Notes under the pieces: generated by a model
The model's input: the letters and a program-made list of their open reading frames with translations, nothing else
The model's database searches: none
Told to the model about the DNA's origin: nothing
NCBI RefSeq assembly: GCF_000165425.1
Contig: NW_001798961.1
Location: forward strand, 186,001 to 250,000
DNA: 64,000 nucleotides
From: Paramecium tetraurelia
Lineage: Eukaryota > Ciliophora > Oligohymenophorea > Peniculida > Parameciidae
Direction: 5' to 3'
In this document: piece by piece, positions 25,256 to 53,486 of the stretch
Layout of the letters: each line of letters begins with the position of its first letter
Position numbering within the stretch: position 1 is the stretch's first letter
Translations under genes and position numbers: made by a program

Positions 25256-26619
25256 TGTGTCAATAGTTACAGTACTCGTAATAAGATTGAGGAGCTTGGA
25301 TTAAAAGATTAGAATTTAAGAAAAAAGAGGAAATGAAATATATTTGATAAAATGTAAAGTAAGATCAATTCTATTATTCTTTCACTTTTTTCTCTTCTCA
25401 TCACTTTTTCTATTCTAAATAAGCGGTGACGATTTCAGATACAAATTATAACTTCTGTTAAATTATTTTGATTTGAAGACATCAACAAAGTATTGATGCT
25501 TTAAATGTAATATAGAAATATATAAATCGAATTTTCTAGTAATAACATAGAAACAATTATCCTCATTTTAATTCATAGTTAAGCTATTCTGATAAAAATT
25601 TATTGTATCATAGTATTATCAATATTGCAATAAACTTGAAGAGACAAAAATTCATAGATTTTGTAAGTTCTTAGAGAATGCAATACATAATATATCACAC
25701 GGTAGGTGTATCATTTAAGCTTTATCCAATATTTTCAACTTGAAATCAGAAAATAAGTGCTAAATTTTAGAAAAGCCCTGCAATTAAATTGTAATTCATC
25801 ATTTAAAAAGTATGCGAGAAGTCGCACTGTTAAGCTAAAAATCTTTAAAAATTATTTGATAATGATCGGTTACATCTAATGATATTTCTTCATCTAAATT
25901 GCCCTATTCTTAAGGCATATTTTTGCATCAATCGTAAACTTAAAATCCTAATTCTGATAGTATTAATTTCCCCCATTCTTATGGTAAAAATTTGATCGAA
26001 ATTCCACGATCCAAATTCTACTTATGGATTTCTAAGAAATATTTTTATCGAAATTGTGTCAAAAAATTTGATTTAAGTAATCAAACTTCATCATTTATAC
26101 GATTTCAAATGGACTATCCTTATTAATTGATTTAGTTTCTTATTTAAACTTTTGTAAAGTAGCCCATAAATATTTGTTTCAAAATTTTACAGTATATTCA
26201 GTCTGAAAGATCACCAGTTCTTAATAGATTTATAGTCATATGATAATTTAAAATTCAATATTAAAACTGAAAGTTCTAATTTCGATATTGTTTTACCAAT
26301 TTCTTAAAACTCATAATATAATTTAAAGGTCTTTAAAAAAGAAAATTTAGAGAAATTTCTAAAATCGCAAATGATAAGGAGCATTATTAAAAGGTGAAAT
26401 TTCAAACGTTTATTCAAAAATTGAAACATGTGTCAACTTTTATTTTATGAACTACATATTGATGTTGATAACTGTAATATTTATTACTGATTTGATTCAT
26501 GTTAGAGAACTTTGATCATTCAATCAGAAATAGAATTTTTGGAGATTGAAAAAGAATGAAATTCAAAGATTTACAATTGAAAAATATTGAATATTTAATT
26601 TATCTTATGAATGATTCAA
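25256..26619. other. Long AT-rich spacer
   Basis: About 1.36 kb between the OSBP-like stop and the lectin stop (convergent genes). I read both strands and found only short frames broken by TGA. No tRNA-like fold or repeat was recognised. Long for such a gene-dense genome; may hold decayed coding sequence or unrecognised RNA. Confidence 0.3.
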
Positions 26620-27959
26620 TCATTGTATCAATTCAACTTTGTAGAGAAGTTTTTAGAATAGGCCAGAAGATTTGATTATTTAGGTTGCTGTAAATGAAGC
26701 TGAAGTTTTGGTAATTTTAAGATATTATTAAGAATTTGTAGTTAACAAATACTTTGCTGATAGCCTTACAGTATTAGTTTTCCCTACTTTACATTAGATA
26801 TTAGAAGAAGTGTACTATTATTGAATGTCTCGAATACAAAATATTTGCATCTTCAATTATTAATTTTCTTAGCATTTCCAATAATAATTAATTTTTATAG
26901 ATTAGATGCCTTCAGGGATTTTAATTTCTTCTTCTACATCTTGACTTTAATTATAGTTCATTTCTTAAATTTCTACATGATTCTCTATTTCATTTTTTGT
27001 ATCAAAATAATTAGTTTGTGTCATGCCTTAAAATATTGCGAGATCAAAATATGCATAATTAATACAAAAATAATTGTATTAAATTGATAAAATTATTGTT
27101 GCATGCCCTTAAATATTAATTTATTAATTACATGGGTAAAATCCAAGATCTATTTAGGAGGTATATGAAACTCTTCCAGATAACCTTATGTTAAAATCAG
27201 TTCCATCATGATAAAACCCAAGAAGATTCGGATGACACATTGTTGTTTCCCATCCTGATGGAAAATTCACAGTTTGGCTTGAACCATAAGGTAGGGTACT
27301 TGTGATTGTTGGTCCGACTAAAATAAGATCAGAGGAGGCCAATAATATTTAATAACCAAATTATTTAAGATTGGTGTAGAGACTTATCGTCACAGTATCA
27401 TCTGTTAATGATAAGCCCTATATTGTCATAATTTGCATACCGTTAAATTATTAAATTAAGGTCCTTCAGCATAATAACTAACAAAATTAGCTATGGCCAC
27501 ATTTATCTTCAAATTTTTAATATATGAATGAGTATATTACCAAAGTGGATTAGTGATATTTAAATGGTTTATAACTTAAACACTGTCATCATTAAATGCA
27601 AACCAATTTAAATTGATTCCAAAATATAACCAAGGACTCTCACAAACTGTCTTCATTGTGAAACCTAAATCTAAGTTTTTCATATTACCAAGTGTGGTGA
27701 TGCTTGTTATATCTAATGAATATCCTTGAGGAAACTATAGCGCCATATCCATCAAAGCGATATTTAAGTACACATCTGGTATTGAGGAGAATTCTTATGC
27801 AAATGGAACAAAAAATTCTTCTGACCTAAATTTCATTGAAGAAGTAAATAAAATTAAAGACAGATTGTATGCATAATTGAACTGAGTGAAGAATCCTGAC
27901 TCAAATTAATGACCAGCGTTTACAGAAAATATTTATAAGGCTAAATGAAGTATTAGCAT
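26620..27959 (-). CDS. Secreted protein with H-type lectin domain
   Basis: ATG 27957-27959 to TGA 26620-26622, about 438 aa, one 23-nt intron (GTATGC...ATAG). The N-terminus MLILHLALQIFSVNAG is a signal peptide. The next 100 residues fit the H-type lectin fold (discoidin/Helix agglutinin type): FAQEFSSIPDVYLNIALMDM, FPQGYSLDITSIT, MKTVCESPWLYFGINLNWFA. The remaining C-terminal 250 residues have scattered Cys pairs and no clear family. The frame continues without a stop into a part that looked at first like a separate 134-aa gene. Likely secreted or surface-bound and carbohydrate-binding. Confidence 0.65.
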
Positions 27960-29509
27960 AATAATTATTAATAAATTAGATACATTTATTTGAATTAAAT
28001 ATTTCTAACCTAAGTGTGGGTAAATAGATTAGAGGTTTTAATAATAATTTCAAGATTTATAGGGGACAAATTATATATAAATGTAGACTATCTACTTTAA
28101 TTTAGGATAATTTCATATAACACCGTTTCATTGTTTTCCAAAACTATTTATATAAATTATATTAAAGTTATTCGGTGATTTTTATTTTAATCTTCAAATA
28201 AGGAATTTGAATTATTAGCAAATAATCTACTAAATTACAGATGGTAGATTAAAGATTAATTGGTACTAATTAACTAATCAATATAAATTGGTATATAAAT
28301 ATGCTGTTGTGACTTTATGCTATTTCTATATAAACTCAGATCTAGTTATACCTTATTAAATTCATGAATAAGTACTAAAAATACTTTTGATCAATGATCA
28401 CAGTCGTATTCATTAAAACATCGTATAAGCATAAATGAATTTGGATTAAGAAAATTATAAACTCCTTCATTAAATACCTTCAAATCAATTTTTTATTAAA
28501 GCCAAATAAATTAAGTTTAATAGTTGAATTCAGGGTCTATTCAAATTTTAATTTAGATTTCGCTTTATCCCTAATCGGACTTAAAATTAAATTCAACTCT
28601 CAAGTAACCTTATTTAAATTCGATATTTTGGAACAACCAAAAAATTACAATGAAGTTTTAAAGAATGATACTCATAATTTCTAAATTATATGCAGTATAT
28701 CATGTCAGTTAAAAAAGATCATAAATTTCTAATTTATTTAGCTTTCTGCACATATGCTTTTTTATTTCTATTTTTAAGATTATTCCATCTAAGTCTCATT
28801 ATTTCACAATTTAATTATTAATTAATTTTATATTTATTTATTTTATTATCATTTTGTAAATTAAACTACTCCATAAATGAAAAGTCTAGAATAATAATAA
28901 AAAAAACACAATAAGTATACTTTTTCCTATCGATTAAATAGCATCCAATTTATTTTTAAATTATAAAAATAAATATCAGTCTGATGTTAATTTAGTTGTA
29001 TTAATCATAGATATTGCATTAATAAATTATCTCGCTTTAAAGAATAAACTCTTTTATAATCAGTATATTCAATTATATTAATTAAATGAGGATATGATGT
29101 GAATTAATTCAATTAGAATAGAAATGAAATATCTGCACATCAACAAAACTTATGTTTTCATTAATTCAAGGACCTGGTTAAATAATTCATAGGGATCTTC
29201 AAGATTCTGATGCTTTGAATCTAATAATAAATTATTTATTAATAGATTAGTCTTGGCCTGGATAGCCTTCATTTTTTAAGTGTCCAACAAGATGGAATAA
29301 AAGATGTTTATTTTATCATTTCTTTAGTTTCTTTTGAAGGCGATAAAAGTTAGTATTTCATATAAATTTAATTTGATTTTGATAAATTGATAAGGTTAAA
29401 TCACACGTTCTTTTCAAATTATATTTTATCTATCTCACTCGATTTGGCTGAACTTTCCTAGTTTTGATAAATTTCAAAATTTGTATATATATAAAAATTA
29501 ATCAAAACA
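27960..29509. other. Long AT-rich spacer between divergent genes
   Basis: About 1.55 kb between the starts of the lectin (minus) and the TLDc gene (plus). Very AT-rich with short T- and A-runs. No coding frame of convincing length on either strand and no RNA gene recognised. It must contain both promoters. Confidence 0.35.
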
Positions 29510-34073: not shown

Positions 34074-34940
34074 ATTTGTATATTATTTATAATAATTCCA
34101 TAAAAACATAAATCAATACCATCATTTAACCCACTATTTCAGTTTAATTGTCCCTAAAATAAGTTCATCAATATAGTAATAAGTAAATAGATTGATTTAG
34201 CTATCCTCAAAAATAAGGTCCATCGATTTCTTAACAAAATCCTTTACTTATTTTTTATATACAAAAAAAATATCAGAAACTAACAATAACAGATCAAATT
34301 GTATTATTCTGATAATTCGATTTAAAATAGGGACTTATACTAAAAGAAATTGATATAAATCTAACAGAATAACATAGCTAAATAGATATTTTTTGAAGAA
34401 ATATATAGTTTCACAACAATATGCATAAACACATCACACAGTATGAGCAGAATTCCTTTTAAGATGTAATTAAATTGTATGAAATACTAAATATTCATTC
34501 CTTTTGATAAGAATTTCCAGAATAATCCCATATAACCTCAATAGATGATTCTCTGCTTTAATAGAGTATTTTCATAAATTTAAAGATGATTCCAAAAATA
34601 AATTTTAGTAGATTTTGAATAGATATCAACAATCTTAATTAACATTAGAATGTAATTATTTTTGATTAAATAATCAAATAAATATCCAAGAAATAATTAT
34701 ATTTCATCAAAAAGTGAATTGATCACAATTTTCTTTAATTTAGTTGATATTTAATACTTGATATTCAACATAATCATAATAATTAAATTAATCATTGTTT
34801 TCTACATAGAACCACTAATTATAACTGCTTATGGCTTTAGTTTACAGTTCAATTATAAAAATATAATTAACCAAAAACCATTCTTCTGCATTTCTATAAA
34901 TCCTATTCATCAATATTTTATTAATTATTTTATTATTCCG
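34074..34940 (+). other. Spacer with possible small gene
   Basis: AT-rich region. Around 34,421-34,665 a plus-strand ATG opens MHKHITQYEQNSFQDVIKLY, and nearby frames give DSKNKFQQILNRYQQSQLTL, resembling a short coding gene. I could not place introns that remove an in-frame TGA. Elsewhere nothing seen. Confidence 0.25.
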
Positions 34941-36918
34941 ATGCTTTCTTATCATAATTTAGCCCAAAGTGATTATCAAAAGGAAAAGGATATTCCAGTT
35001 ACAAATCCCTTACACAAACCAAAACAAAACAGCCTTAATATCTTAACTTCTCCTGTGCCCCACCCTTTCAACACATTGCTCCCATCCAATCTGTAATCTT
35101 GATTTTCTTAGTTTCTATAGTCTATAACACCAACCACTTGATAACGATCGACAATCGTAAACATATAATCATTCTTAGATAGAGGTCCAATCTCTCCCAA
35201 AAAGACCAATCCTATAGCTACATCCCAATCTTAACCAATCCTCATGAGCAAATGCTGTTAGAGTAATAGCAACATCTGATGGATCAAGGTGAAGATTTAA
35301 AGTAATAAATCATTCCACTTATATTTAGATCCCAAAACAAGAAACTGGTGTTCGAAAACAATTCACTCAAAAAGCTGGTGGAGTAGCTCTCCTTAGAATT
35401 GTACATATATGTATCTAACTACTCTAGGCAGTCTTTAAGGATCCAGAAATCTTAGGAACTAGAAATGAAAGCTAAAATAGACTATTAGGAAGAAATGATT
35501 GTCAAACTTAAATCGGAAGTCAGAAGAAAAGCAGATCTTATATAAGAGAACTAATTTAAGGTAAATGAGTTGGAACGGCTGCAAAATAAATTAGAAGAAT
35601 ATTCGGGCTTAACTAAGAAATATTAAGAATAAGTCTTATAAATGTAATAACTGAAAGAATAGGCTCAAGATCTCAATAGGCAATTAATTCAATATCAAAG
35701 TACAGAAAATGAGAATCACAACCTAAAGGAATACATAGAAGCATATAAACAATAAATAAGAGACAAAGATGTTAAAATATAACAATAGAGGGAGCAATAG
35801 GAATAATTGTTTTCAGATAATAAAAAAATGAAATCCACTTTGGATGTTCTTAACTTTGAGTTTAAAAAAGCACAGGATGGTTATAATGAATCCTTGCACA
35901 GAGCGACCATTTAAAATACAGAATTGCAAGGATAATTAAGTTTACTCCAAAAAAATTTAACTAATCAAACTCATCAAATTGAATTACAAAAATAATAGGT
36001 TAAATAACTAGAACTCAAAGAAAAGGAATTATACACTACCAAAAATCAATACTTAAAATTAGACGAAAAGTTTTAAGCCTAAACACAATAGACCATTAAA
36101 TGTAATACTTATATCTTGATATTTAGAAACTAAAGAAATTGATAAACTTCATATGACCTTAAAAAACGGCAAATAAGAATACTTGAATTTACAATAAAAA
36201 TTAATGCATTTAGAATAAGAAAATAAGAGATTATCAGAATAGTCTCTGCAAATTTCCAAATCTAAAAATCAACTCGAATTATAATGCTAATAATTAGATT
36301 AAGAACTAATTAAAAAACAAGGATCCTTAGACACTCTCTAATTGAAATAAATGGAATTGAAATCCAATTTTGAAAAGTGTTAAGGATAGGTATAAGGATT
36401 AGAAAACGAGCTCAAAAAGAAAGAGACAATTATACTCAATTTGGAATAATAACTTTAAACGTAAAAAGGATAACTAGAATAAATTACACATATTGATACA
36501 TAAAACAAAAGTGAAATTAATCATAATTTTGCAAAAATGAAGGAAATGCACAATGATCTTATTTTGTATGAAAAATAAGTAAAGTAAATCAATTCAGGTA
36601 ATAATAATCTTATGATTTAAAGAAAATTATTAACTCAAATAATAAAATTAGATCATAATTGAGAGAAATGCCTAATAAGAAAACGAAATGAAAAAGATGA
36701 GAGTAATTTATCATATTTTAATTTAGGAATAAATAATGCATTAGGATAATCGTATAAGATATTTAGAAAATGAAATCCATAACTAATCTTTTTAATAAAA
36801 ATTGACTACAGCTAGACCTATTTAATCTTAAGAAAAAGGATTTCCAAATCAATATCCTTCTTCTCAACAAAATACCCTTCAAGGATCCTTTAATAATCAA
36901 TTCAATTAATATAAATGA
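34941..36918 (+). CDS. Long coiled-coil protein
   Basis: ATG 34941 to TGA 36916-36918, about 620 aa. The N-terminal 100 residues are polar and Pro/Gln-rich, with introns there only partly fixed. From PHEQMLLEQQQHLMDQ onward the protein is almost entirely heptad repeats (KLEEYSGLTKKYQEQVLQMQ; KQEYLNLQQKLMHLEQEN). A 25-nt intron (GTAATA...TTAG) near 36,100 restores the frame. It ends QYPSSQQNTLQGSFNN. Gln is mostly TAA/TAG. Likely filamentous or centrosome/basal-body associated; no named family. Confidence 0.6.
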
Positions 36919-37332
36919 TTATCTAGAAATTTTAGGTTAATATAAATTAATTTATAACCTTTCTAACATTTATATTTCTCATAATAATATTTCTTATGAG
37001 TTACATTTCTTTTATTATGATGGTGTATGAATTATTAGTAAAAGTAAATGCTCATCAATTTAAATCTATAACAAAATTATAGTGATTTCATTTAAGAAAA
37101 TAAATGAATAATTTAAATCTATCGATCTGTAATATGGATATCATATTGTAAGCATTTAGCAACCTACCTTCTATTATTGTAACTTGTTGTTTACAATTAG
37201 TTATAGAAAGATGAAAATTCTGAATTGAATGAAATTCAGGCTCAGAATCAATTAGATTATATTTTAAAGGTTTTAGTAAATTAATTTAATATTATAAATT
37301 GCTCTAATATAAATTATTATTATTCGTATTTG
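36919..37332. other. Intergenic spacer
   Basis: About 410 bp, AT-rich, upstream of the truncated IFT54 copy. No gene seen. Confidence 0.35.
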
Positions 37333-37731
37333 TTTAATAAAATAATGGCAGACTTTTGGAAACCTACAGCTGATTTATATAGTGCTCTATTTGAAAAGCC
37401 AAAAATGTCATAGAAGTTACTTGAAAGACCACCTTTTAAATACATATTTGATATTATAATGGAGACAACCAAATAAACAGGTTTCAAATTTAAATTTCCT
37501 TTAGGTTATGCAAAAGGACTTTATACAACTGATGAATTAGATGGGAATTCGTACGATAATAAAGATAAAAAGCTTATGTTCCTATAAAAGATAATAGATT
37601 TGACATCCATGATGTTAAAAGAGGAAATCGCTGCTAAACCTGGTAAAATAGCTGCAGGTTTAGAACCAGAGAATACAAATCTTTTACTGTAAGCTATTTA
37701 TAGAGCAGCTGTAAGTGGTAAAAATAGTGAT
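37333..37731 (+). repeat. Direct repeat, upstream copy (IFT54 5' region)
   Basis: A 399-bp block repeated at 39561-39959 in the same orientation with four substitutions and no indels. It starts 12 bp before the ATG. By codon, three changes are silent and one is Arg to Lys. Confidence 0.95.
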
Positions 37732-37915
37732 TCTTATGTAGAAGATGTACTTTTAAATATTTAGGATTTAGGTACTTGCAATAATAGGGGCAAATCCAAA
37801 AGATTAATAATTTTAAGCTCAAGGAATTTATGATAAAAAACCTTAGTAAACATAAAGTCAATAAATTCAAGAATTTTAAAATGAACTAAATTTTAAAAAA
37901 GGAGATGATTTTTGA
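37345..37915 (+). CDS. Truncated IFT54 paralogue (CH-like domain only)
   Basis: ATG 37345 to TGA 37913-37915. Residues 1-120 equal those of the full IFT54 downstream: MADFWKPTADLYSALFEKPK, RPPFKYIFDI, LEPENTNLLLQAIYRAAV, that is, the N-terminal CH-like domain. After NSD it diverges, and through an intron it acquires a short unrelated tail, GANPKDQQFQAQGIYDKKPQ to FKKGDDF. It lacks the charged linker and C-terminal coiled coil that bind IFT20. It may be a free tubulin-binding domain or a gene on its way out. The frame is intact and substitutions are mostly silent, which argues for selection or very recent origin. Confidence 0.7.
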
Positions 37916-38157
37916 CTTTGAATAATAAATTTAGGCATTGAAAATGTAATTACAATAAACAGCTTAAAATACTTAAAATTATGTTTATAAAGTCTAAGAT
38001 CCCATTATTTATATATAACTATTTCATTTTTTTCAATATTGATAATCATTCAGTTGTTTTTAATCTTTCCCTAAATCAATAAAATTATATAATAAAATAA
38101 AATTCGATTAAATAGATACTTGATATTAAAATTAATAGCTATTATTATTTTAAAAGA

Positions 38158-39047
38158 ATGTATAAATAATTGAATTAATAAGTTGAAATCAAAATAAGAT
38201 TTGATAGCCTACCCTCGATATAAGCAATCTCAAGACAAAGTCTAAACCGAATTAAAAAAATCTTTAACCACTCAGAACTTCCATAAATTCCTTTTCGATC
38301 AATTTTTGAATCTACTGGATAATAAAAAAAATTAACAATAGACAACTTCGGCCAAGTAGCTGAATAAAAATAAATAATTTCTACTACTAGAAAATCTCTT
38401 AAATTATCAAAATATTAATCTCCTTCATACTTTTCAAGAAAAATGCAATTTAGAAAATAATTCCTTAATTAATTTAAATTTGGAAGTAGTTAATCAAATA
38501 AAGGAAATTCCTTTCAAAGATACTACTTTATTTTAGATAATTAATAAAATAAGTCAAAAAATGAATTAGTTACATGAGTATAGGAGTGAAAAGGCAATTC
38601 TTTCAGCAGCTGATAAATTAATTAAATCTCACATACGTATTTAAGAAATAGAATTGATTTTCAAAAATTGTAAACTAAAAGTTTGGTAATCTGTAGATAC
38701 AATTTTTGTTCGAATATACTGGTAAGTTAAAAATTATATTAATTTTAGTCCTAAAATGTAAAAGAAGCAAAAAAATTATGAATATTTTTTATAGGATTGT
38801 ATTAATAGAGAATTGCCCTTTCATAAATTCTTAATTTTGCTTCAAAACAATTAAATTAATTTAAAAAAATAAAAATAAACCAGATTAATTCTTCTTACAA
38901 GTTCTTTATGACTTTTTAGACAAATTAGAAGATCTATTTAAAAAATTATGTGATGATTCTTACCGTTTGTTAGAATAAACTATAATAAATTTAAAATAAA
39001 AATTACTAAGTATTATTTCATAACAATTCTTAAGATAAGGAAGTTGA
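38158..39047 (+). CDS. Hypothetical helical protein
   Basis: Between the two IFT54 copies. A plus-strand frame with short introns reads KSLTTQNFHKFLFDQFLNLL, QIINKISQKMNQLHEY and YDFLDKLEDLFKKL, Leu/Gln/Asn-rich and helical, ending at TGA 39045-39047. ATG 38158 is the likely start, but the first intron could not be fixed. A further coding-like stretch (MEQFSKLSKKESYNQY) follows. No family recognised. Whether it arrived with the duplication or was already there is unknown. Confidence 0.45.
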
Positions 39048-39560
39048 GGTGATGGAACAATTTTCAAAATTAAGTAAAAAAGAGAGTTATAACCAATATT
39101 GATGGAGAGTACAATGATGAAATAATTGACTGAATTTGAAGATAGATTTTGAATGTTCAAATAAATAGAAAATAGTAATAGGTTTATTCAAACAGAATAA
39201 ACGATTTAGTTTATGATATTAAAACTGTAAATCTAGTTTGAGTTTAATAAATAAGGGGTTTTGTAACTAATCATTAGTAAGATATACTCTAAATTATAGC
39301 AATTCTTCCAATAATATAAAAATATTTGAATGCTATTTCCTCATAGAACCATTTATTACAATAGCATTTTCTTGTTATTAATTCATTATAATTATTTGAA
39401 AAAATAATTATTTATATTAATTGTCTGTCATTATTCGACTATTAAGTAATGACTTAATTTTTATCCTTTCATATGTAATCAAGAATACTCATGGTAGTAG
39501 TATTAGTGATTTCAAAATTTAAATAATAAAACATGAATATTGAATTATTATTTGTTTTTT
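39048..39560. other. Intergenic spacer
   Basis: About 510 bp between the hypothetical gene and full-length IFT54. Short broken frames only; a possible 3' exon of the preceding gene near 39,050-39,110. Confidence 0.3.
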
Positions 39561-39959
39561 TTTAATAAAATAATGGCAGACTTTTGGAAACCTACAGCTG
39601 ATTTATATAGTGCTCTATTTGAAAAGCCAAAAATGTCATAGAAGTTACTTGAAAAACCGCCTTTTAAATACATATTTGATATTATAATGGAGACAACCAA
39701 ATAAACAGGTTTCAAATTTAAATTTCCTTTAGGTTATGCAAAAGGACTTTATACAACTGATGAATTAGATGGGAATTCGTATGATAATAAAGACAAAAAG
39801 CTTATGTTCCTATAAAAGATAATAGATTTGACATCCATGATGTTAAAAGAGGAAATCGCTGCTAAACCTGGTAAAATAGCTGCAGGTTTAGAACCAGAGA
39901 ATACAAATCTTTTACTGTAAGCTATTTATAGAGCAGCTGTAAGTGGTAAAAATAGTGAT
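39561..39959 (+). repeat. Direct repeat, downstream copy (IFT54 5' region)
   Basis: Second copy of the 399-bp block at 37333-37731; covers the last 12 bp before the ATG and the CH-like domain of full-length IFT54. Confidence 0.95.
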
Positions 39960-41016
39960 CCTTTTGTTAAGAAAGTACATAGAGTTTAATAATTAATATT
40001 TAGATTTTAGGAGGAGCAGGAGCCAAAGAGCCTGAACCTTAAAAAAAAGAACAGCCTAAACCAGAACCAAAAGCTTAATAGCCTCCTCCAAAGGAGTAAA
40101 GTGCACCATAAGTAAAGGATGAAAAAAGGCCTGATGAGAAGAAGCCAGCTCAACCTAAGGAAGATCCTAAGCCAAAATAATAAGCTCAATAACCTCCTCC
40201 TCAATAGCCTAAGGAGAATTAAAAATAACAATAAGTTCCTCCTCCATAATAATAATAATAATAAACACAAGAGGGAAATGTAAGACCTTCAACTGCCAAA
40301 AAAAGACCACCTTAATTGCCTTCAAATCAAGTTTAGGTTGAACAAAATTAAAAGAAAGGAGGAACAGCAAATGTAATTATTGAAGGGAAAGGAAATAATG
40401 ATGAAGATGATGGTATTGTAGTTCAAAGCAACGTGAGGCCAACTTCTGATATTAATGCTCAAGAATATGGTAAATTCGTTAGAGACAATATGAAAAATTA
40501 AGAGAAAGCCAAAGAGGAAGAAAAAGAGAAGGATTAACCACAGGAAGGAATTAAAATGAAGAGGATAGGAAATGTCAATTAGAGAAAAGGTTATTAGTCA
40601 AATACTATGAGTAGATAAAATCAAGGAAGAGATTGCATAAAATTTGGGAACATCACAAGTCTCTGATACAATTGTGATGCAAAAACTAATCCAATCTATG
40701 AGTTAAAATGTAAATCCTTTGGCTAAATAAATTGAATTTATTTAAGATGATATTGAGAACATGAATAGGGAATTGTAATAATGGAGAAAGATCTATAATG
40801 TTTCTAAACAAAAGATGGTTGATATGAATAGAGCAACTGAAGAGGTGAGAATAATTTATTAATAATTAGGCATAATAACCTTTATATGATAAGATAGCTG
40901 AAGTTGAGGAAGTTATAAAAGAGAAAAAATCTAAGATATAAAACATCAAAGCTTAAATTATAAAAAATAAATTACAAATCGACTAATTGCTTAAAGCAGT
41001 TTTAGTTTAAAAATGA
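39573..41016 (+). CDS. IFT54: Intraflagellar transport protein IFT54 (TRAF3IP1)
   Basis: ATG 39573 to TGA 41014-41016, about 440 aa. Residues 1-120 are the CH-like domain (SALFEKPKMSQKLLERPPF-type sequence, AAKPGKIAAGLEPENT). A 24-nt stopless intron candidate lies within TG|YAKGLYT. A Pro/Glu/Lys/Gln-rich linker follows, with six Gln from six TAA at 40247-40264. The C-terminal coiled coil (QIEFIQDDIENMNRELQQW, IAEVEEVIKEKKSKIQ) is the MIP-T3 region that pairs with IFT20 in IFT-B. Two introns (25 nt each) were fixed by frame. It works in cilium assembly, with the CH domain contacting tubulin. Confidence 0.88.
40247..40264 (+). repeat. (TAA)6 microsatellite coding for six Gln
   Basis: Six in-frame TAA codons following CCT CCT CCA. 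Under this code they read as polyglutamine; under the standard code they would be six stops. Confidence 0.85.
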
Positions 41017-50672: not shown

Positions 50673-50868
50673 AATATTAGATTTATTGATTAAGAATTAT
50701 CAATAACTTAATACATAAGTAGCTTCATTTTTGAATGCAATAATAATATCTGTTATCTAAAATTTCATTTAATTTTAAATTCAAGAAACTAAGAGAAATC
50801 AGTAATTATTGATTTAAATTGATACCAATGAAAATTCATAAAAAACTTGTTGAAAATAAACTAAATAT

Positions 50869-52239
50869 TCAGATTCCATCCTCATCAAAATTACGAGATC
50901 TATATAGTTTTCGTTCAAAACTATCTAACATATTATTAACATTTTTTATATCATTTGAATCATTCTACTTTTAGCTGTTTATTAAGTTGCTACATTTAAT
51001 CTACCTTCTCTTTTTAGGATTCATCTATTATCTACTTTTATTTAAATATATTGATGTTTCTTTTAACAACGAACTATTGGCTTATAAGGTTTTGCTAAAA
51101 GTACTTTCTGCTTACTCAACAGCTTGGGCTAGCAATAAACCTTTATATTCAGTCCTATCGAGTGGATGCTTATGGGATAAAGCATATGTAGATTTAGATT
51201 ATTAACTAAGATTTAAGATAGGAAATACCTACTTAACATTAACATGGGAGTAGTCTAGGGTTGATTGGTAGACTATATTTAGGTTTGCTCATTTTTGATA
51301 GTTAAACCATTATTAAACGAGACAGAATTGAATTCCTAGTTGAGTACACTGCCAACAGTATATGGTCTGCTGGTGTGATTGTTCTGTTGTGAGGATGTAA
51401 GAATTTGATTTTGAAATTATTACAAAGTCTAAGATTATTGCTATTTTTCAAGTTATTGAAGTGTGGATTCAATGACATCTTTAGATTGTCTGGTTAAAGC
51501 TGTGGTTACTCTTTGGAGACTTTACCTTGAGGGAGAGATTCCACTTTTTTATTCTAATTCTAGATTGAGAATTCTTCTTCGAGTGCTTTGTTGTTTAATT
51601 TAATCCATGTTTTTAAGTCTCAAATCTTCTTTAATCTATTCGACTTAAAAGTCTTTACTAATTTTATCACTTATAGACTTAACTCCTTGTTCCTCCATTT
51701 TAAGTATCCTAGGATTGATAAGGATATTGATATATTTTTAAGATTGCTGGTTTAATTTGTTCCATAGGTGATCAGGCCTACCCAGAAGTGCAGTTCTAGA
51801 GAAGATAGGTTTCAGAACGATATTCTCAACTTGGACATCATTTTGCTATTAACTCAGGTTCTGCAGACTTCCTCTTTCCATTTTCCTTTGTTGTAGCCTG
51901 TTCAAATCTTCGTCTCTTGCCAAATTATAATAAATGATTTTGTTCTTCTACAACTCCATTTTGTCTTGCTATTAGAGTTCCAACATCTTCTTTATTCTCT
52001 TTTCGCCTCGTTTTTATTGTTCCTTGAGTTAGGTGAATATTTTGGCATTAGACTTAGCCTGATGAGGATTGTTCCAAATATGGGTGTTATCATTATAATA
52101 ATCATGATTCTTTTTCTGATGGGTGTTGATTGGAATTGTTTAATATCTAAAATGAGTGTATAAATTACTCAGGTAATTTGGTATGTAAATAGTACTTATC
52201 TATTTCCTTGATGGGATAAGAGGGGTGATTTGTTATCAT
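50869..52239 (-). CDS. Gln-rich coiled-coil protein
   Basis: ATG 52237-52239 to TGA 50869-50871, 439 aa with introns of 28 nt (GTACTA...TGAG) and 23 nt (GTATTT...TTAG). Coiled coil near residues 60-130 (KEQQKRGEKRIKKMLELQQQ), a Gln-rich stretch (LQQLEKQQQSQTLQQFQNQ), and a basic Asn/Ser-rich C-terminus (SFERKLYRSRNFDEDGI). The second splice extends the gene through a region whose plus strand also carries an open 156-codon frame (50828-51298). The spliced minus reading is the better one because it stays open and keeps the same composition. Function unknown. Confidence 0.6.
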
Positions 52240-52261
52240 TTTAATATATAAAATTAATTAA

Positions 52262-53413
52262 TCAATTTTCATTTATAATCCGCTAACATTAAGCCATTAA
52301 GTTGAAGATTTGCAAGTCCTCAGCTGATCCTTCGATTAAACATTTCTCAGTATAAGCTGCAATTTCCATCATCTTAGCCTTTTGCTTTTCTTTAATCGTG
52401 TCTGTTGCTAGCACAACATCCAAAAACTATAAAATCTATTATAATTAGATAATAATTCACCAATTGTTCGATATTATAGCCTTATTGGATAACTCTAGTG
52501 CATTCCTCCTAAACACTTCTTATACTCTTAGTTTGAATTACAGACACAAGGTCTTCGATTTATTCATCTGGTATGAACTAAACTATTGATTGGAATATTT
52601 TACTCCTGATATTTCATTAATAGCCTTTTTGTTTATACTCTTCTCATACAGAGTTGACGAACTTTGAAGCATATTGACACTCTTCCTCAGATCACCACCA
52701 GAAACAACCACTAATTATTTTAATGCATCCAAATTATATGTTACTGACTCAGAATCAGCAACAAACTTGAGTCTCTCTATTTGTTCATTCTCAGGGATGG
52801 ATTTGAATCTATATTTGACACATCTTGAAACTAAGGGTTCAATGATCTAATTAATATACACACTTACTTTGGTGATATAGTTGCAAATTATACAAAATCT
52901 GGTTGTGGTTGCATAGTCTTCGATGATTCTTCTGAGAGCACTTTGAGCATCATTAGTCATTGAATCAGCTTCATCAAGAATGATGATTTTATAACTAGGA
53001 CATAGAAATCCTGGGTTTGGGTTTTTGGCCACTATTTATTCTGCAAACTTTTTGACTTTATTCCTGACAACATTGATTCCTCTGTCATCAGATGCATTCA
53101 ATTCCAATACTCTTTATCTCCAAAAATCGGGTCCAAATAATTGCTTTGCTAATGCTATTATGGTGGATGTCTTCCCAGTCCCTGGAGGTCCATGAAGTAG
53201 AAGGTGAGGCAGATTTCCAGTTTTCAAAACTCCTTGCAAACTCTAAACCACCTCTTCTTAATATGCAAGATCCTCTATTTTGTTAGGACGACTTAAAATT
53301 ATGAATTGATTATACTATTTTTCAACCCATGGCAACATAGGTTTAACAACAGGTTCTTCCACCTGCATTGCTGATGTGTTTTTGTTAAACTAATTCAGAG
53401 TCCTATTTTACAT
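52262..53413 (-). CDS. RFC4: Replication factor C small subunit (RFC4/Rfc2 type)
   Basis: ATG 53411-53413 to TGA 52262-52264, about 350 aa. A 24-nt intron restores [23 protein letters not shown]+ motifs: Walker [29 protein letters not shown], Walker [17 protein letters not shown], and the arginine-finger region ending [13 protein letters not shown] (the SRC motif follows the next intron: [14 protein letters not shown]). The C-terminal helical collar ends [13 protein letters not shown]. It is a subunit of the clamp loader that places PCNA on DNA. The sequence is closest to human RFC4/yeast Rfc2 by memory of motifs. The stop lies 22 bp from the next gene's start. Confidence 0.88.
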
Positions 53414-53486
53414 AATAAAATTAAATGAGCGGGTAATTTATATTTATTGAGAATCAAATATTAAAATGTGTTATATTTGCAGAATA

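Follow-up and report, generated by a model that had tools for sequence, protein, structure and literature searches.

A gene of Paramecium tetraurelia that shares only the CH domain of IFT54 is very probably an old paralogue whose front was recently replaced, through gene conversion, by the sequence of the IFT54 gene beside it. The two genes lie in the stretch analysed here (“the window”: 64,000 nucleotides of contig NW_001798961.1, hereafter C8; G+C 29%), which was translated in the ciliate code with TAA and TAG read as Q and belongs to a genome of 69 Mb in 231 contigs. In the history that we infer, a tandem duplicate of IFT54 with only the N-terminal CH domain and a tail of its own would have existed before the duplication that gave rise to C8 and to a second contig, C38. 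Ectopic conversion from the adjoining IFT54 on C8 would later have overwritten about 400-430 bp of this duplicate (start region, exon 1, intron 1 and most of exon 2), with the tail outside the tract retaining its old divergence. The outcome would be an open frame of 173 residues in which a CH domain nearly identical to that of IFT54 is followed by a different tail of 52 residues (Table 1).

Table 1. Coordinates of the CH-only gene, gene X and IFT54 on C8, as positions within the window.
Feature	Position	Strand	Remarks
Near-identical (putatively converted) tract	37333..37731	+	Outer left limit possibly 37316; 4 differences/399 bp against 39561-39959
CH-only paralogue, exon 1	37345..37480	+	ATG at 37345; ciliate-code frame
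CH-only paralogue, intron 1	37481..37504	+	24 nt, GT..TAG, 3n, no in-frame TGA; predicted
CH-only paralogue, exon 2	37505..37746	+	Tract stops at 37731; last 15 nt (SYVED) lie beyond the tract
CH-only paralogue, intron 2	37747..37771	+	25 nt; offset +402 and phase 0, as in IFT54 intron 2; predicted
CH-only paralogue, exon 3 (tail VLAIIGANPK...KKGDDF)	37772..37915	+	TGA at 37913-37915
Gene X remnant	38159..39242 (approximate limits)	+	Between the two CH genes; frame broken on C8
IFT54, 446 aa	39573..41016	+	Introns 39709-39732, 39975-40003, 40590-40614, 40845-40869; presumed donor

The original prediction described two 399-bp blocks differing at four positions with no indel, and an ungapped alignment of 37333-37731 with 39561-39959 found this to be exact. 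The aligned span runs from offset -12 to +386 relative to the ATGs at 37345 (upstream gene) and 39573 (IFT54). All four differences are transitions, and a codon-level count of silent and replacement changes bore out the expected three silent changes and one Arg/Lys exchange: AGA (R)/AAA (K) at 37427/39655, followed by the silent pairs CCA/CCG at 37431/39659, TAC/TAT at 37554/39782 and GAT/GAC at 37566/39794. Polarisation assigns three of the four to the upstream copy and leaves the remaining one undecided. A repeat search of the window also recovered the first 300 nt of the block, at 98% identity. On the 5′ side the match extends to -29 with three more differences (at -13, -17 and -20), and no homology was found in the left flank beyond that offset. 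On the 3′ side the first differing base is +387, immediately past the NSD codons, and identity falls from there (14, 9, 6, 5, 4, 7 and 5 matches in successive 15-nt bins from +375). The “clear breakpoint” proposed after NSD is therefore a sharp boundary but not the end of homology, since intron 2 begins at the same +402 offset in both genes (29 nt long in IFT54). The block was apparently taken as coding throughout, but it contains intron 1, which is identical in the two C8 genes.

The introns of all four CH genes found in the genome (see below) were predicted from sequence and measure 22-29 nt; about 98% of P. tetraurelia introns are reported to be 20-30 nt long (PMC5485702). With introns of 24 and 25 nt, which are of the usual size, the predicted spliced frame of the upstream gene comprises 173 codons open to 37915, that is, the CH domain plus 52 residues, and the gene is CH-only with an open frame and its own short tail, as had been predicted. 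Intron 1 coincides with an eight-residue insertion that the unspliced reading shows relative to Chlamydomonas IFT54, and its counterpart in the C38 paralogue is 22 nt long, with the C38 frame staying open across it. Intron 2 was picked from nine listed candidates of 15-38 nt as the one that fits both the IFT54 offset and the usual Paramecium size. Among the other tail introns considered and set aside, a 34-nt candidate, and 16- and 31-nt candidates further on, give the same tail. As a separate observation, intron 1 of IFT54 (39709-39732), like its twin in the upstream gene, has 24 nt and no in-frame TGA, so that its retention would add eight residues; stopless introns of length 3n are reported to be counter-selected in Paramecium (PMC5485702).

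The domain content of the two C8 genes agrees with this description. PF10243 (MIP-T3 CH-like) matches the unspliced upstream frame, 37345-37830, with E 6e-49 over profile positions 1-112 of 113, and was found in 0/14 control genomes. PF17749 (MIP-T3_C) is absent from the upstream gene, the four stretches above the cut-off all being at the two full IFT54 loci; a fifth stretch, on contig C186, scores 17.8 bits and is below the cut-off, and 2/14 controls have such sub-cut-off matches. At E <= 0.001 there are only four solved relatives, all of them IFT54/TRAF3IP1 (5fmt, 8bd7, 5fmu and 2eqo). The downstream gene was rightly identified as IFT54: it has both the MIP-T3 CH-like and the MIP-T3_C domains, called on a gene model that still contained intron 1.

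A search of the whole genome located CH sequence at four sites, a pair on each of C8 and C38, the three matches other than the block itself having E values of 2e-203, 3e-134 and 2e-42 and thus lying above chance. The same four genes came back from a protein search and from the Pfam CH model, with the C38 upstream gene in two overlapping pieces, and neither found further IFT54 relatives in the genome. In viral and prokaryote contigs, a search for relatives returned 4 and 63 pattern stretches, respectively, none of which was confirmed. On C38 the order is CH-only gene, gene X and IFT54 on one strand, the same as on C8. Of the 23 blastn rows between C8 and C38, 21 are colinear, at 70-87% identity (81-87% in rows over 1 kb), and several unmatched stretches interrupt the colinearity. 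The two regions are most likely copies from the recent Paramecium whole-genome duplication, and the CH-only gene on C8 has an equivalent copy in the same place on C38, contrary to what a recent duplication on C8 would give. The C38 copy has one 1-nt frameshift, which may reflect decay or a sequence error. A 2-nt deletion in the same copy, considered as a second frameshift, falls inside intron 1 and was excluded.

Gene X, located between the two CH genes, is represented on C8 by four protein-match pieces in three frames, with TGA inside two of them, whereas on C38 it is one open frame of 338 codons. More distant matches are present on contigs C35 and C154, and the C38 protein had no Pfam match at E <= 0.001. 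Gene X and the CH-only gene thus seem to have met opposite fates on C8 and C38. The two contigs differ in further places. Opposite the stretches 25374-29477 (4.1 kb) and 50680-53441 (2.8 kb) of C8, C38 has only some 60 and 410 bases, respectively, which makes them candidates for loss or insertion following the duplication. Upstream of the array, a C8 stretch of about 3.2 kb (34146-37304) corresponds in position to 14.7 kb of C38, delimited by the matches on either side, but has no blastn match there; it includes reading frames (35252-36142, 36153-36662 and 36688-36918) that look coiled-coil-like by eye.

The pair on C8 was first interpreted as a very recent partial tandem duplication. The recent similarity stands, but the recent duplication does not, as the array recurs on C38 and the CH-only copy there is diverged. 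This copy is identical to each IFT54 at 77/125 residues and, being equally far from both, indicates that the duplication is old. By a simple counting method that is near saturation at these distances, and with the codon at the frameshift left out, the C38 CH-only copy differs from the two IFT54 genes by dS of 1.34 and 1.76 and dN of 0.27 and 0.26; the two IFT54 genes differ from each other by dS of 0.94 and dN of 0.022, with 122/125 residues identical. A copy that arose on C38 after the split would be expected to side with the C38 IFT54. At the 47 tract sites that are discordant between the IFT54 genes, the C38 CH-only copy agrees with the C38 IFT54 at 19, with the C8 IFT54 at 17 and with neither at 11. 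It therefore has no preference for either, and we conclude that the tandem duplication predates the split of C8 and C38. In a protein tree of five sequences with Chlamydomonas as the outgroup, the C38 CH-only copy groups with the C8 pair (bootstrap 87). This grouping fits no simple history and, given how few residues separate the two IFT54 CH domains, carries little weight.

Set against this age, the near identity on C8 points to conversion. An old arrangement should leave the upstream C8 copy as diverged as its counterpart on C38, an expectation that holds outside offsets -12 to +386 and fails within them. The tract is 99% identical between the two C8 genes, as opposed to 70-72% for the C38 CH-only copy against the other three genes. 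Both C8 copies are 86-87% identical to the C38 IFT54 and 70-71% identical to the C38 paralogue, and because they are equally related to the C38 genes, the donor would be the C8 IFT54. With three silent changes among some 73 silent sites, the conversion would date, as a rough estimate, to about 5% of the silent divergence between C8 and C38.

Homology appears to continue at lower identity beyond the right edge of the tract, judging from the shared intron offset and a similar exon start, although the tail as a whole gives no significant match. Past the tract, up to +401, 8/15 bases equal those of IFT54. A GTA..TAG intron of 20-34 nt followed by 44 open codons occurs at 165/127,400 positions on both strands of the window (0.13%; 0.22% in one shuffled window). 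Exon 3 starts with VLAIIGA, compared with ILGGAGA in IFT54 and ILAGIAS in the C38 paralogue; against random open readings from the window, this likeness has p 0.0006 (IFT54) and 0.0016 (C38 paralogue), values that are uncorrected and refer to seven residues picked post hoc, behind an intron that is one of nine candidates. Had a new partial copy been fused to unrelated DNA, neither the shared offset nor the similar exon start would be expected, and this account is accordingly disfavoured.

A question with its own odds, compatible with conversion, is whether the patched gene is a working one. It may encode a free CH-domain protein whose binding partners, outside IFT-B, are tubulin or microtubule proteins, a proposal that we regard as possible but on balance doubtful. 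The open 173-codon frame and the predicted introns of usual size speak for it. So does the C38 CH-only lineage, which for a long part of its past looks constrained (pairwise dN/dS 0.15-0.20); in a count that included intron 1, the differences fall mostly on third positions. The IFT54 truncation p.R155* offers a further point in its favour, as the truncated protein is reported still to interact with MAP4 (PMC4617596); in the parts of that study cited here, two truncating IFT54 alleles are distinguished from missense alleles, which affected IFT20 binding slightly or not at all. The proposal is weakened by the 1-nt frameshift in the C38 copy and by the base changes on C8, where three silent changes in four give no clear sign of selection (probability of at least three silent in four, 0.03 counting all changes and 0.12 counting transitions only).

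The C8 tail, too, may have been cut short by a frameshift. As it stands in frame, it has no significant similarity to the C38 tail protein (p 0.38 by shuffling, 0.11 against window readings) or to the IFT54 tail (p 0.08). For the first C8 tail fragments, the comparisons gave p 0.32 and 0.22 with the C38 tail and p 0.03 and 0.47 with the IFT54 tail, and the C38 tail is likewise not significantly similar to IFT54 (p 0.89 and 0.49). When the C8 tail is joined to the next frame after the TGA, in an exploratory reading, the comparison with the C38 tail yields p 0.02 and 0.007, a hint that a frameshift cost the C8 tail its end. In genome searches the C8 tail and the C38 tail protein each matched only themselves. 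On the sequence evidence, a free tubulin-binding role is no more likely than drift following the conversion.

The CH domain of IFT54 is reported to bind tubulin and the C-terminal part to bind IFT20 (PMC4617596), the latter through a coiled coil (PMC4617596; PMC10191852). By analogy, the CH-only protein, if made, could contact tubulin but is predicted not to join IFT-B because it is without the part reported to bind IFT20. It would then provide a natural separation of the tubulin-binding end of IFT54 from the end that binds IFT-B. A more far-reaching view, that a ciliate lineage keeps a dedicated free tubulin-binding CH-only factor whose CH domain is refreshed by conversion so that both proteins share the tubulin interface, is one that we think improbable. 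None of the literature matches listed describes a CH-only paralogue of IFT54 in Paramecium; PMC8535419 names IFT54 once, among its references.

Two other accounts of the near identity on C8 have to be weighed. In the first, a copy of the first 430 bp of IFT54 would recently have landed 2.2 kb upstream, fused to unrelated DNA, and the C38 array would be independent and older. The near-identical blocks with their sharp edges are what this account would lead one to expect, and the CH-only tails and 5′ flanks of C8 and C38 indeed cannot be significantly aligned as DNA: the tails score 29 against 28.7 +- 3.9 for shuffled sequences, and the 5′ flanks 25 against 30.5. The 5′ flanks of the two IFT54 genes align over about 60 bp (56 against 24.6 shuffled). 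Yet the account needs two separate events that each placed a copy next to gene X, at an equivalent site and in the same orientation, and it leaves unexplained both the intron 2 offset, found at so few positions of the window, and the likeness of the exon starts; we therefore judge it quite unlikely. Short-read assemblies go wrong at repeats of a few hundred bases, but an assembly artefact, in which partial collapse of the two loci or gap filling gave the upstream copy IFT54 sequence that is not its own, is less likely still, since a copied patch should be identical, whereas four differences in the tract (three of them private to the upstream copy) and three before it were found, and since the array itself recurs on C38.

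Replacement of the front of an old paralogue by conversion from IFT54 hence remains the preferred reading of the C8 pair. The kind of event is instructive but ordinary: local conversion gives an old duplicate the look of a recent one, and the question is settled by inspecting the partner locus left by a whole-genome duplication. Recent single-gene duplications are reported to be extremely rare in Paramecium, with a median of 28 per genome, and gene conversion to be frequent after whole-genome duplication (PMC10195154), so each apparent case of the former deserves a check of the partner locus. Among the literature matches listed, none reports conversion at the IFT54 locus in Paramecium.

Compared with IFT54/TRAF3IP1/MIP-T3 proteins (PF10243 plus PF17749), the CH-only gene on C8 shares an almost identical CH domain but is without MIP-T3_C and ends in a 52-residue tail of its own. 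Viewed together, the two C8 genes resemble a recent single-gene duplication of the sort described in PMC10195154; unlike these, the array on C38 dates their duplication before the C8/C38 split. The screen in that study, which in the parts cited here relies on reciprocal best hits, could have passed over a pair of this kind, as the best hit of IFT54 would probably be its C38 partner. The conversion described in the same study likewise makes a pair of paralogues look younger than it is. In the parts cited it concerns pairs from whole-genome duplication, whereas here conversion would have acted between neighbouring tandem paralogues, and only partially, over about 400 bp, changing one domain.
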